Source: Actinosynnema sp. ALI-1.44 (GTDB lineage: Bacteria > Actinomycetota > Actinomycetes > Mycobacteriales > Pseudonocardiaceae). Taken from it: a stretch of 64,000 nucleotides of DNA. The notes under the pieces were generated by a model. That model did no database searches and had not been told where the DNA came from. It saw only the letters and a list, made by a program, of their open reading frames with translations. This document shows, piece by piece, positions 59,535-64,000 of this stretch (position 1 is the first letter of the stretch; each line of letters begins with the position of its first letter). The stretch covers positions 124,001 through 188,000 of the forward strand of contig NZ_MTQO01000045.1 of the NCBI RefSeq assembly GCF_001984155.1. Reading direction: 5' to 3'. Made by a program: the position numbers and the translations under genes.

Positions 59535-61868
59535 CTAGCCGAACCCTCTGACCGCATCTCCTGACGGGAAGCGGCTGTCCTGTGCGCCGGGCCGTGCGAC
59601 CGGTTGCATCGACGGGAACGACGGGTGCTCCATGCCGGGTCGCGCGACCGGTTGCATCGACGGAAACGACGGATGCTCCATCAACGGCATCGGCGGCCGT
59701 TGAACCGGGCGCATCGACGGGAACGACGGGTGCTCCGTCATCGGCTCGCCGCCGGGCCGGGGCACTGGCTGCATGTTCGGGAAAGACGGGTGCTGGTTGC
59801 CCTGCATCGGCGGCATGGGCGGAAGCGACTTGCGGTCGCGCTCCGGCCGTCCGGCCCGGCGTTGCCGTGCCGGTGGCGGCGCCGGGCGCATGGCCGCCGC
59901 CGGGGTGTCCGGGACTTCGATGTTCGGCACGGACAGGTTCGACATCGACAGGTTCGGCGCCGTCAGGTTCGGGATCGCCGACGTCGGCGGCAGGTACGGC
60001 TCCGGACGGACGGGCGGCACCGGCTCGGTCAGCGGGCCGGGGTCGAGGCCGAACAACGGCATGTCCCCTGGGTCCGGCTTGGCGTGCCTGCCCGACGGTT
60101 GCTCCACCGGCCGCATGCCACGCGCGGACGGCGGCGGCGCCGAATGCCTGCCCGGCGGCGGCGCCATCCGGCCCGGCATCTGACCCGACGCGCCCTGGCC
60201 GGACGGCATCTGGCCCGAGGGCATCCGCCCCGCAGCGGCCCTCGGCATCGCGGGTATCGGCCTGGGCAGTGCCACGGACGCGCCGGCGGACGGACGACCC
60301 TGCGGAGGTGGCACCGGCGGCATGTTCCGGCCGGTGCCCGGCATCGGCGGCCTGCCGTCGCGCTGCGCGGCCGGTGGCCGGGCCACCGGCTGCATCGCCG
60401 GGGCGGACATCTGTGCGGAGACCCGCGCGGGGCCGACCGAGGCCATCGCGGGCGCCGACATCTGTGCCGAGACCTGTGTCTGCCCGGCCGAGGCCATCGC
60501 GGGGACCAGCGGCTGCGCGCCCGGGACCTGCGTCGGCATCTCGGCGAGCGTGTTCTGCCGGGCCGGGGGCATGGGCGGCCGGACCGACTGGCCGAACTCC
60601 TGCGCGGCCACGGGTTCGGTCGCCGGTGCCGGTGCGGGGGACTTGCTCGGCTTCGGCGCGACCGGGCGGCGGCGCTTGGTCTCGGTGGGGACCGGCAGTT
60701 CCTCGTGCAGCTTCTCGGTCCACTTGATCATCGCGCGCGGCGCGTCCCAGCCGCAGACGCCGACCAGCTTGCCGTTGCGGACGTACCCGGTGATGCCCGG
60801 CGTTCCGGCGGCGCCGTCGGCCAGGTGCACGGTGTCCGTGCCGAGCGACGGGATGCCCGAGATCTGCAGGCGCACACCGTACTGTCCGGACCAGACTCGC
60901 GGGATCGGCATGAACGGCGTGGCCTTCTCCCTGCCGAGCAACAGGTTCTCCGCCGCGTGCCGTCCCATTTCGACGGCGTTGATCCAGTGTTCGACGCGGC
61001 GTGGCGTGTCGTCGAACCGCAGGTTCGGCCACCGGCCGCAGTCACCCGCGACGACGACGTCCTGCGCGCCCGCGGCGAACAGCGTGGACTCGCACAGCAC
61101 GCCGTCTTCCAGCACGAGGCCGGACCCGCGCATCCACTCGACCGAGGGGATGGACCCGACGGCCATGATCACCGCACCGGCGACGAGCAGTTGGCCGTCG
61201 GTGGTGTGCATCGCCACGGAATCCTCGGCACAGACCCAGTTGCGGATGTCCGTGCCCATCGCCATCCGCGCGCGGTGCTTGCGGTGCAGCTTCTCCACCG
61301 CGGCGGCCACGTCGTTGCCCAGGTTGCGCAACGGGAAGCGGGAGCGGCCGACCATCGTCACGTCACGGCCCATCTTGCGGGCGCTCGCGGCGACGTCGCA
61401 GCCGATGTATCCGGTCCCGAGCACCACGATCGGCAAGTCGCTGCGGGAAATGACTTTCTTGACCGCCAGCGCCTCGTCCACTGTGCGCAGTGTGTGCACG
61501 CGTGGGCTGTGCCGTGGTACTCCCTTGAGGTGCCTCGGTTCGACGCCCGTCGCGATGATCAGGCCGTCGTACTTGATCTCCTCGCCACCCGGCAGGTGCA
61601 CGACTTTTCGTTGTGTTTCAAGCCGTTCCGCACGGGTACCCAGTCGCCAGCGCGCACCGGTGTCGATGTGGCGCTGCAGGGTCAGGTCGGCGGGGCGGTC
61701 GCTTCCGGCGAGCAAGTCCTTGGACACCAACGGCCGGTGGTACGGCCACCTGGCCTCGTCACCGATGATCACCAGTTCGCCGTCGTAGTCGAGTTCGCGC
61801 AGGCGTTCCGCGGCTCTCAGGCCGGCGACCCCCGCGCCGACGATGACGATGCGTTCGAAGTCGGTCAT
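59535..61868 (-). CDS. FAD-dependent ferredoxin reductase with long repetitive Pro/Met-rich tail
   Basis: 777 residues. Residues 1 to about 395 form a complete ferredoxin/rubredoxin-reductase-type flavoprotein: FAD motif IVIVGAGVAGLRAAERL, active region WPYHRPLVSKDLLAG, NAD(P)H motif VVLGTGYIGCDVAAS and AQDVVVAGDCGRWPN. The usual family length is about 400. The remaining 380 residues are disordered and rich in Pro, Met, Ala and Arg, with near-repeats: VSAQMSAPAM twice, MPSGQ several times and HPSFPxM-PVxRPG four times at the end. It should pass electrons from NAD(P)H to the ferredoxin encoded directly upstream, since its ATG follows the ferredoxin stop without a gap. The role of the tail is unknown; it may bind the membrane partner or form assemblies. 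Confidence 0.88.
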   Translation of the reverse strand: MTDFERIVIVGAGVAGLRAAERLRELDYDGELVIIGDEARWPYHRPLVSKDLLAGSDRPADLTLQRHIDTGARWRLGTRAERLETQRKVVHLPGGEEIKYDGLIIATGVEPRHLKGVPRHSPRVHTLRTVDEALAVKKVISRSDLPIVVLGTGYIGCDVAASARKMGRDVTMVGRSRFPLRNLGNDVAAAVEKLHRKHRARMAMGTDIRNWVCAEDSVAMHTTDGQLLVAGAVIMAVGSIPSVEWMRGSGLVLEDGVLCESTLFAAGAQDVVVAGDCGRWPNLRFDDTPRRVEHWINAVEMGRHAAENLLLGREKATPFMPIPRVWSGQYGVRLQISGIPSLGTDTVHLADGAAGTPGITGYVRNGKLVGVCGWDAPRAMIKWTEKLHEELPVPTETKRRRPVAPKPSKSPAPAPATEPVAAQEFGQSVRPPMPPARQNTLAEMPTQVPGAQPLVPAMASAGQTQVSAQMSAPAMASVGPARVSAQMSAPAMQPVARPPAAQRDGRPPMPGTGRNMPPVPPPQGRPSAGASVALPRPIPAMPRAAAGRMPSGQMPSGQGASGQMPGRMAPPPGRHSAPPPSARGMRPVEQPSGRHAKPDPGDMPLFGLDPGPLTEPVPPVRPEPYLPPTSAIPNLTAPNLSMSNLSVPNIEVPDTPAAAMRPAPPPARQRRAGRPERDRKSLPPMPPMQGNQHPSFPNMQPVPRPGGEPMTEHPSFPSMRPVQRPPMPLMEHPSFPSMQPVARPGMEHPSFPSMQPVARPGAQDSRFPSGDAVRGFG
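59570..59800 (-). repeat. Repeats encoding HPSFPxM-x-PVxRPG units
   Basis: Four copies of a unit of about 45-60 bp lie at the 3' end of the reductase gene, recognisable on the plus strand as GACGGGTGCTCC or close variants. They encode HPSFPNMQPVPRPG, HPSFPSMRPVQRPP and HPSFPSMQPVARPG twice. The last two are nearly identical, which suggests recent duplication. Confidence 0.85.
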
Positions 61869-62075
61869 CTAAACCCTGTCCACCTTGATGGCCTGCATGG
61901 GGCAGCAGCGCGCTGCCGCTGCCGCCTGCTCGACCTGATCCTCTTCCGGTCTCTTCGTGTAGAAAAGCCGCCCGTCGGGGCTCAGCTCAAACAGGTTCGG
62001 CGCCTCCATCTGGCAGATCGCGTACCGCTCACAGCGGTCGTTGTCCACTTTGACCCGAAGCCGACGGCCTCTCAT
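61869..62075 (-). CDS. Small ferredoxin, probably [3Fe-4S]
   Basis: 68 residues. Cysteines are in NDRCERYAICQMEAP (C-x5-C) and ARCCPMQAI (CP motif), the pattern of the [3Fe-4S] ferredoxins that serve cytochrome P450s in actinomycetes, although no P450 is near. ATG 62075 overlaps the upstream stop (ATGA) and follows GGAGG. The reductase gene begins on the next base after the stop. Confidence 0.92.
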   Translation of the reverse strand: MRGRRLRVKVDNDRCERYAICQMEAPNLFELSPDGRLFYTKRPEEDQVEQAAAAARCCPMQAIKVDRV

Positions 62076-62677
62076 ACCTGTTCCTCCACCAGACCGATCT
62101 GAACGAGCATCCGGGTGGGAACGAACCGCAGGACCGAAAGGGTCACTGTCGGGATCAGCAAAGTCAGTCCGGCGAGCCACAGTACCGCGAGGTGCCCGTT
62201 GGCCATCGCGCCGAGTATCGAGTGCACCACCAAAAGCCCTAGTGCCGCGTACGCTATTCGGTGTACCCACTGCCAGCGGCGGTAGGAAGTCCAGCGGTAC
62301 AGCCCGGCGGTGATGAAGATCGCGATCATCAGTTCCAGCCCGAGGATGGCGATCGCGTAGCGGAAGAAAACACCGTCTCCGAAGGGGATGCTGATCTGCG
62401 CGAACGTGAACTTGCCCTCGGCGAGGAACAGGAAGCCCATCGCGTGCACGACGCCGAACGTGATCGTCAGCGTGGCGAGAACCATATGCCCCGCGCGCAA
62501 GGTCTTGCGCTCACCGAATCTTCGCGCCCAGCCGGTCTTCGTGAGGATTCCCCAGCAGATCGTCAGGCACATCAACGCGTAGGCGGCACGTGCGGAGACC
62601 GCCGCGACCCCGCGCAGACCATCGTCGGACGGGCCGCCGACCGCGAGAACCACCACGTCAGTCACTGTGCGGGTCAC
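62072..62677 (-). CDS. Heme-b membrane protein, ferric-reductase/cytochrome b561-like
   Basis: 201 residues with about six membrane helices. Two pairs of histidines 13-14 residues apart (HMVLATLTITFGVVH and HRIAYAALGLLVVH) are positioned to bind two b hemes across the membrane, as in ferric-reductase-like proteins. No FAD/NADPH domain is attached; that activity could be supplied by the next two genes. GTG 62677 overlaps the DUF4142 stop (GTGA). Confidence 0.85.
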   Translation of the reverse strand: MTRTVTDVVVLAVGGPSDDGLRGVAAVSARAAYALMCLTICWGILTKTGWARRFGERKTLRAGHMVLATLTITFGVVHAMGFLFLAEGKFTFAQISIPFGDGVFFRYAIAILGLELMIAIFITAGLYRWTSYRRWQWVHRIAYAALGLLVVHSILGAMANGHLAVLWLAGLTLLIPTVTLSVLRFVPTRMLVQIGLVEEQV

Positions 62678-63471
62678 CGTGCGAGTTCCTTGTCCACGAA
62701 CAACCTGCTGCGCTTGCCGTTGCCGCGCCCGCGGCGATCGTCGCGGCGGTCGTCCTCGTCGTCCTCGTCGCCGTCCCGGCCGGACACGACGGACATCTGC
62801 TTGCGACGGCGGTTGCGGCTGGAAGCGAGCCACAGCAGGAACACCGTCAGCGCGACCATCAGCGGCACCAGCGTGACCGCGACGACCATGTCGGTACCTT
62901 CGGAGTCCGATGACAACGTCAGCGGAGTCGCGGCCGCCAACTGGGCGTAGTCCACGTTGTTCGTGCTTTCCAGGATCGTCATGTGCTTCATGACGACCGT
63001 GTTCGCCGTCGTCGCGAACTTCCGGATCTCGGCATCCGTTGTGGCCGCGCGGACCTTGGCGATAACGGGGAAGATCATCCCGTGCGCCGCGCGCAGCCGC
63101 ATCGCCCATACGGAGTCGAACTGGGCCCCGGTCGAAGTGGCCATCTCGGTGAGCCAGCTCTTCTGCGCGTCGTTGGGCTCACCGGGCAGCGGGCACGCGT
63201 ACGGCGCGGCGAGCTCGTTCACCGCCGTGTCGAGCATGGCGTGGTCCGTCTTGAGGGTGCGGCCGACCTCCTGCACCTTGGGATCTTCCGACCGGCTCTG
63301 GGCCATCTCGCCAGCGGGCATCTCCCACAGGCCGGCCAGCTTGACCTTGACGAGCAGTTCGCAGTCGATCTCGGTCAGCGGCTTGGACCCCGGCTGTGCG
63401 TGCGCGACGGACTGACCGGCCAGCAACAGCGTGGTCAACAGGAGCACCAACGACGCGAGGGATCGTTTCAC
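62674..63471 (-). CDS. DUF4142 exported protein with C-terminal membrane anchor
   Basis: 265 residues. A signal peptide (LASLVLLLTTLLLAGQSVAH) precedes a DUF4142 helical domain (about 30-180; LTEIDCELLVKVKLAGLWEM, VGRTLKTDHAMLDTAVNELA), a membrane helix (VVAVTLVPLMVALTVFLLWL) and a highly charged Arg/Asp cytoplasmic tail. DUF4142 is a ferritin-like four-helix fold; its function is not known. It is the first gene of the operon, after AAGGAAGG. Confidence 0.88.
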   Translation of the reverse strand: MKRSLASLVLLLTTLLLAGQSVAHAQPGSKPLTEIDCELLVKVKLAGLWEMPAGEMAQSRSEDPKVQEVGRTLKTDHAMLDTAVNELAAPYACPLPGEPNDAQKSWLTEMATSTGAQFDSVWAMRLRAAHGMIFPVIAKVRAATTDAEIRKFATTANTVVMKHMTILESTNNVDYAQLAAATPLTLSSDSEGTDMVVAVTLVPLMVALTVFLLWLASSRNRRRKQMSVVSGRDGDEDDEDDRRDDRRGRGNGKRSRLFVDKELAR

Positions 63472-63626: not shown

Positions 63627-64000
63627 ATGGATACGGGCGGGCCCGCCGGGCGGTTCAAACAAAAATTCCGCAACGATTTGACACTGGACGCGCAACGGCT
63701 GTCCCACCAGGATGTCACCGTGGGACGCCACAGCCATTCCGCAAGAGCCCTGTTGGGTGACGAGCTGCGTCGTCATGGACACACCGAGGAAGACCTGGCG
63801 ACAGCTCTGTACCGGGACTTCGGCACTCCATTGATGGCCTTCGCCCTCAGGCTGACCGGCAACGACCGGCACTGGGCAGAGGACGTCGTCCAGGAAACCC
63901 TGATCAGGGCTTGGCGCAACGCCGAGAAGCTGGACCGCAGCCCGGACATGCTGCGTGCCTGGCTGTACACGGTCGCCCGGCGCATCGTCATCGACGGCAG
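63627..64000 (+). CDS. ECF sigma factor, SigL-like, 3' end cut by window end
   Basis: The frame from ATG 63627 is open to the window end (about 124 codons). After a 50-residue N-terminal extension come region 2 motifs: ALYRDFGTPLMAFALRLTGN, HWAEDVVQETLIRAWRNAE and LRAWLYTVARRIVIDG, close to mycobacterial SigL. GTG 63720 is a possible later start that would remove about 31 residues. Region 4 is outside the window. Its divergence from the redox operon suggests that it may control that operon (inference). Confidence 0.87.
   Translation, partial: MDTGGPAGRFKQKFRNDLTLDAQRLSHQDVTVGRHSHSARALLGDELRRHGHTEEDLATALYRDFGTPLMAFALRLTGNDRHWAEDVVQETLIRAWRNAEKLDRSPDMLRAWLYTVARRIVIDG

Follow-up and report, generated by a model that had tools for sequence, protein, structure and literature searches.

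A putative ferredoxin-fed, two-heme electron exporter under sigma factor control in Actinosynnema sp. ALI-1.44

Four overlapping genes near one end of a 64,000-nucleotide window from the genome of the soil actinobacterium Actinosynnema sp. ALI-1.44 (contig NZ_MTQO01000045.1, positions 124,001 to 188,000; the window is the whole stretch of DNA analysed) encode a DUF4142 protein, a membrane protein (MEM), a small ferredoxin (FDX) and a flavoprotein reductase (RED), and we asked what such a combination of genes could be doing at the cell membrane. Our favoured answer is that the operon probably encodes a transmembrane electron exporter that is controlled by a sigma factor, fed by a ferredoxin, and carries two hemes. 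All four genes lie where an initial annotation, made from the sequence alone, had placed them (Table 1), joined by the GTGA, ATGA and zero-base junctions it described, and both of the histidine pairs it reported in MEM were located (H64/H78 and H139/H152). It had missed a divergent extracytoplasmic function (ECF) sigma factor gene with its anti-sigma gene, the operon promoter, the frequent fusion of MEM to FDX, and two further families of exported partners. The four-gene unit is therefore corrected here to a module controlled by an ECF sigma/anti-sigma pair, with Lipoprotein_15 and DUF1996 proteins as added or alternative partners; operon and pair together have the appearance of one regulated module. 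The annotation's remark that no system with this set had been described still holds for the open-licence PMC literature (most subscription papers lie outside it), in which none was found.

In the mechanism that we propose, RED would transfer electrons from NAD(P)H to its FAD and then to the small FDX and its predicted [3Fe-4S] cluster. FDX would dock on the cytosolic C-terminus of a five-helix MEM (it is fused there in about half of the relatives), and MEM would carry the electrons across two stacked b hemes, an inner one at H64/H139 and an outer one at H78/H152, to the outer face of the membrane. Exported partners (DUF4142 and, in relatives, also Lipoprotein_15 and DUF1996) may accept the electrons there or hold the metal or thiol to be reduced; as final acceptor we envisage oxidised Fe or Cu, or else a thiol in the envelope. 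Control would come from a SigL-like sigma factor, which an RslA-like zinc anti-sigma protein would restrain and which would turn the module on from a dedicated promoter. Essentially this path, from NAD(P)H through FAD, an iron-sulfur cluster and heme b to the outside, had been suggested by the initial annotation; gene conservation, fusions, invariant cofactor residues, and a positive-inside topology fit it, while the path itself is one that we infer.

Conservation of the gene set

The initial annotation had proposed a search for the four genes together in related genomes, and their neighbourhood was indeed conserved there. A family scan of 150 genomes recovered MEM in 65 (E <= 1e-3, own genome counted). 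Strong matches were found at 77 places (E <= 1e-25) and 18 weaker ones were left out; with one further place set aside (G054:C4:6221903), the counts below rest on 76 strong loci from 52 genomes and 16 genera. Searches for neighbouring genes covered all six reading frames and used profiles made from members of these very loci, which favour the own family. The core trio of MEM, FDX and RED occurred together in 66 of the 76 loci, across all 16 genera, and the complete set of four in 55 (45 genomes, 13 genera). The nearest named relatives are Kibdelosporangium and Actinocrispum. RED lay downstream of MEM in 71 loci and DUF4142 upstream in 55, while FDX shared an open frame with MEM in 39, formed a separate gene in 31, and was not found in 6. 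Within about 7 kb of MEM, an ECF sigma gene was present in 61 loci, an anti-sigma gene in 53, Lipoprotein_15 (PF03640) in 36 and DUF1996 (PF09362) in 20; Pfam confirmed these two families, the sigma factor and the zf-HC2 anti-sigma on one example each.

Beyond the family, matches were found in 11 of 394 genomes scanned across the class (10 besides the own genome, all from one other family and comprising 11 loci), and separate FDX and RED genes adjoined MEM in 11/11. The order scan matched 50 of 298 genomes at E <= 1e-8. Of the loci in other families, the 12 best (L209-L220) were examined, and 8 of them, from four families, had both FDX and RED; FDX was fused in 7 of these 8, which also held DUF1996 in 5 cases and DUF4142 in 1. 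At the level of the phylum, the own genome alone matched (1/396 at E <= 1e-15), with 8 candidates scored per genome, so that distant relatives may have been missed. Chance gene order, or an oddity of a single genus, was rejected as an explanation given that the core is found in 16 genera of the own family, one other family of the class, and four other families of the order.

Some loci hold partial modules. MEM and RED stand beside a sigma gene with no recognised ferredoxin in L110, L116, L117, L120 and L122, MEM-FDX fusions stand beside a sigma gene without a reductase in L070, L102, L105 and L121, and MEM is alone in L107. One of the weaker places left out of the counts (L092, genome G087) holds a MEM-FDX fusion together with a reductase. 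The own genome encodes a second, distant FRD-like membrane protein (G000:C23:3261-3752, E 3.7e-17), and the copy of the module in L010 resembles that of Kibdelosporangium under a record titled Rhodococcus rhodnii NRRL B-16535, the assembly being likely mislabelled.

Table 1. Features of the module (positions in the window unless a locus is named)
Feature	Position	Strand	Details
DUF4142 protein gene	62674..63471	-	GTG start, 265 aa; PF13628 69.9 bits, above cut-off 27
Membrane protein (MEM) gene	62072..62677	-	GTG start within GTGA, 201 aa; FRD-like; PF01794 Ferric_reduct 26.9 bits, cut-off 28
Ferredoxin (FDX) gene	61869..62075	-	ATG within ATGA, 68 aa; Fer4_13 40.1 bits, Fer4_15 40.0 bits
Reductase (RED) gene	59535..61868	-	zero gap after FDX, 777 aa; Pyr_redox_2 164.8 bits
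Pro-rich repetitive C-terminal tail of RED	59538..60671	-	residues 400-777
Predicted ECF-type operon promoter	63632..63657	-	TGAACC-N15-CCGTA; conserved as GAACC-N15-CCGT
Divergent SigL-like ECF sigma gene	63627..64000	+	cut by window end; equals L004:7628-8278
zf-HC2 anti-sigma gene	L004:8275-8988		beyond window, after sigma gene

The membrane protein and its electron donors

The four histidines H64, H78, H139 and H152 are invariant in 76/76 MEM homologues, with spacings of 14 and 13. The same two spacings occur in NOX2. The structural model of MEM, which is of low confidence (predicted local distance difference test score, pLDDT, 46.9; 6 close sequences), comprises five long helices with one histidine pair each in helices 57-85 and 132-159, and a MEM homologue fused to its ferredoxin in L064 reaches 31.7 bits against Ferric_reduct, above the cut-off of 28. 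Across the 76 proteins, the mean number of lysines and arginines was 3.5 in the loop between helices 1 and 2 and 4.3 between 3 and 4, compared with 0.7 between 2 and 3 and 0.1 between 4 and 5. By the positive-inside rule, these charges put the C-terminus of MEM, which is the site of FDX fusion, inside the cell, and with it the predicted inner heme at H64/H139 and the outer heme at H78/H152.

MEM shares with NOX/FRE proteins (PF01794) the four-histidine plan, for two predicted hemes in our case, and its spacing, and electrons would likewise go outward; it differs from them in its five predicted helices, in the absence of FAD or NAD(P)H domains from its 201-residue chain (Pfam), and in the entry of electrons via a [3Fe-4S]-type ferredoxin that is often fused. 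Since no flavin domain lies on the chain, MEM is not itself a NOX/FRE protein, yet it probably works like one. We consider it very improbable that the module makes extracellular superoxide in the manner of NOX: the histidine spacing would suit such a role, as would the best of three matches between the MEM profile and PDB sequences (a weak one, E 0.48, to a bacterial FAD-binding FR-type protein), but MEM lacks the flavin domain on its chain, and to our knowledge neither a ferredoxin donor nor exported partners belong to the NOX plan. The separation of flavin and membrane parts, which the initial annotation contrasted with ordinary ferric reductases, is true here but not unique, because in the MsrQ/MsrP system, too, a membrane protein with heme b works with a flavin enzyme on a chain of its own in the cytosol (Fre) and with an exported partner. 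The module resembles that system in all three respects, heme b being predicted in our case, and departs from it in the ferredoxin that stands between, the BphA4-type reductase, and the exported DUF4142, Lipoprotein_15 and DUF1996 proteins.

Three cysteines of FDX are conserved in 70/70 sequences (C15-x5-C21 ... C58-P), with Tyr (55 of the 70) or Phe (15) and never Cys at the centre of C-x5-C. This arrangement, with no Cys at the centre, is the rule among P450-type [3Fe-4S] ferredoxins and predicts a [3Fe-4S] cluster; the closest solved relatives are a P450-51 ferredoxin fusion and a mycobacterial ferredoxin, and FDX appears to be a ferredoxin of the P450 type. RED is closest to BphA4 entries (E about 1e-38) and putidaredoxin reductase (2.5e-37) among solved structures, with a Reductase_C match of 23.1 bits, below the cut-off of 25, and is predicted to be an NAD(P)H-dependent FAD ferredoxin reductase of the BphA4/putidaredoxin-reductase type. 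Both proteins thus resemble known P450-type ferredoxin and reductase pairs, differing from them in being linked to a putative heme membrane protein rather than to a P450 or dioxygenase. The fusion of MEM and FDX in 39/76 loci is good evidence that these two proteins work together.

As FDX and RED both belong to oxygenase-type families, their electrons could instead go to an oxygenase or desaturase in the cytosol or membrane, leaving MEM mainly as an anchor or an inward branch, and a desaturase-like gene (L073:6100-7071, recognised by eye) does overlap the end of the reductase gene in one locus. We regard this as improbable: the histidine ligands are invariant, the exported partners are predicted to be transcribed with the core from a single promoter, and the clusters listed, which were Pfam-scanned in part, show no family of oxygenases repeatedly next to the module. 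The initial annotation had also singled out the atypical tail of the reductase, which does exist (the 378 residues that follow residue 399 are 24% Pro and contain no Cys) but is long solely in the own genus and its nearest relative. RED measures 736-820 aa in these 7 loci (L004-L010) versus 357-630 aa in the other whole copies (lengths from gene calls made here; a contig end truncates L077). The tail as a key to function is accordingly not supported, and we treat it as accessory. Long Pro-rich N-terminal extensions on the ferredoxins of the other class family (L075, L076, L079, L083) form a counterpart to it.

Several observations weigh against an exporter of the kind we favour. No ferredoxin was recognised in 6/76 loci and no downstream reductase in 5/76, so the chain is not strictly obligatory; 4 of the 12 order-scan loci have MEM without FDX or RED within 1.5 kb on each side. 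The exported partners vary between loci, and DUF4142, Lipoprotein_15, DUF1996 and the sigma pair were found in 0/11 loci of the other class family, within flanks that contig ends shorten in some cases. The Ferric_reduct score of MEM itself (26.9) falls just below the cut-off of 28, and its model is poor. Finally, the hemes, the direction of electron flow and the acceptor are predictions from sequence.

Sigma factor, anti-sigma factor and promoter

The closest solved relative of the divergent sigma factor is SigL of Mycobacterium tuberculosis (4.4e-32), that of the anti-sigma protein is RslA of M. tuberculosis (3hug_B, 3.2e-8), and the HxxxCxxC motif (zinc, redox-type) is kept in 53/53 anti-sigma proteins. 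We describe the pair as SigL-like and RslA-like in the sense of closest among solved structures and claim no orthology. The likeness extends to the zinc motif; the difference lies in the target, which here would be an electron-transfer module, whereas SigL is described, in the excerpts available, in lipid, stress and metal roles.

Between a divergent sigma gene and an operon gene lie 59 intergenic regions (in 2 more loci the sigma gene is on the same strand). The promoter pattern GAACC-N15-CCGT, directed towards the operon, was present in 52 of these 59 and was found in the reverse orientation in 0/59. The seven regions without it are those of L054 (one mismatch), L064, L070, L102, L105, L114 and L121. 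Non-redundant regions carried the pattern in 22 of 27 cases, whereas in 10 shuffles the best pattern never exceeded 5. Within the window, the longer form TGAACC-N15-CCGTA matches exactly only at the promoter in Table 1. The called start of the sigma gene overlaps this promoter, so its true start probably lies further in than 63627. A promoter match is present in all 8 genomes of the genus, directly upstream of the operon in 7, and an identical spacer suggests the same position in the eighth (G899). Exact matches number 6 in the own genome versus 2 for the reversed control. A SigL promoter is known to begin with TGAACC; a search of the open-licence literature listed no paper with this string.

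RslA is reported to lose zinc and sigma affinity upon oxidation (PMC2877774), and mycobacterial SigL mutants to grow poorly in low iron (PMC10449499). By analogy, oxidation or low iron may bear on the module described here.

Candidate sites elsewhere were also seen. Two more Lipoprotein_15 genes of the own genome, at L159:15383-17582 (contig C37) and L162:5434-7259 (contig C51), each stand by a like sigma/anti-sigma pair, with near-matches to the promoter upstream (1 and 2 mismatches, respectively); this sigma type is thus paired with Lipoprotein_15 beyond the electron module as well. A promoter-like match with a similar spacer recurs in 7/8 genus genomes (L140, L183 and L187, around 1501-1526) and, in 3 of the 4 loci read, precedes a gene for some 490 aa that matches HAMP below threshold, which is a possible further member of the regulon. 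Three genus genomes have a promoter-like match ahead of a membrane sulfatase-like gene (L145, L170 and L181, around 1501-1526). In L159:5229-6828, an exact match is found some 170 bp ahead of an LPMO_10 gene that is followed by a DUF305 gene; this link was treated as chance, there being no like spacer among the matches listed for the other seven genus genomes, a minority of which had their neighbours read.

Exported partners and the candidate acceptor

The DUF4142 protein is modelled with a signal-like N-terminus, then a helical bundle predicted fairly confidently (residues 31-170, blocks at pLDDT 61-93), and at the C-terminus a membrane helix that bears a charged tail; three histidines are conserved in 50-53 of 55 homologues. 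Its best structural matches are to DUF305, Dps, bacterioferritin and CopM, of a strength that chance can produce between helical bundles, and its profile gave no match to PDB sequences at E <= 1. The initial annotation saw in it the candidate outside partner. An exported partner it may well be, in 55/76 loci, but it is not part of the core: it was not found upstream in 21/76 loci, nor, within the flanks examined, in any of the 11 class-scan loci from the other family. This weakens the case for DUF4142 as the essential acceptor and suggests an accessory partner, with Lipoprotein_15 and DUF1996 as further or alternative exported partners in relatives.

A narrower form of the exporter is possible though rather unlikely, namely a specialised ferric or cupric reductase in which Fe3+ or Cu2+ on DUF4142 (ferritin-/CopM-like) and on other surface proteins is reduced for uptake or detoxification. 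MEM is of the FRD type, and the resemblance of the DUF4142 model to metal-handling folds would suit this role, though chance could account for matches of that strength. An EfeUOB-type iron-uptake set lies upstream in one locus and an EfeO-like gene is present in one other-family locus, but EfeO-like genes were found near the module in just 1/76 and 1/11 loci, on which count Efe iron uptake was rejected as a general role. The poor growth of a SigL mutant in low iron (PMC10449499) would also fit, but it comes from another genus. Among known systems, a counterpart of the DUF4142 protein is MllJ, an exported ferritin-like DUF4142 protein in the metal-related methylolanthanin cluster; that cluster serves metallophore biosynthesis, and the available excerpt of PMC11317620 names no heme membrane protein or ferredoxin in it.

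A thiol is another candidate, with Lipoprotein_15 as its possible carrier. CxxxC is present in 36/36 of these proteins, 31 of which have a likely lipid-attachment Cys, and they could act as thiol carriers if the module reduced oxidised Cys or Met of exported proteins, much as MsrQ feeds MsrP, with oxidative stress as the switch acting through the anti-sigma protein. The HxxxCxxC motif of all 53 anti-sigma proteins and the oxidation response of RslA (PMC2877774) agree with such envelope repair. We nevertheless think it unlikely: Lipoprotein_15 is found in 36/76 loci only, and inspection of the listed neighbours by eye revealed no MsrP-like gene, though no MsrP or molybdopterin profile was run.

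Returning to the exporter with its acceptor left general, we tentatively suggest that it may represent a separate class in Actinomycetota, although we hold this with some reserve. In such a class, a [3Fe-4S] ferredoxin would replace the NOX/FRE flavin domain as direct donor to the heme pair, the surface proteins DUF4142, Lipoprotein_15 and DUF1996 would be served under a SigL-type redox switch, and the whole would form an outward electron line of Gram-positive cells. Should the exporter be real, DUF4142, Lipoprotein_15 and DUF1996, all of them exported families of unknown function, would gain a function and a testable partner, FRD-type proteins a new wiring from ferredoxin to heme b, and a SigL-type sigma factor a concrete electron-transfer target. 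The natural MEM-FDX fusion in many species means that reduction of heme by ferredoxin, as well as the outside acceptor, could be addressed on a single purified chain.

Two loci hold genes of related interest upstream of the module: L064 has the EfeU, EfeO and EfeB-type iron-uptake genes (L064:1202-4379), and L076, in the other class family, has an imelysin-domain gene upstream of MEM (L076:9429-10706).

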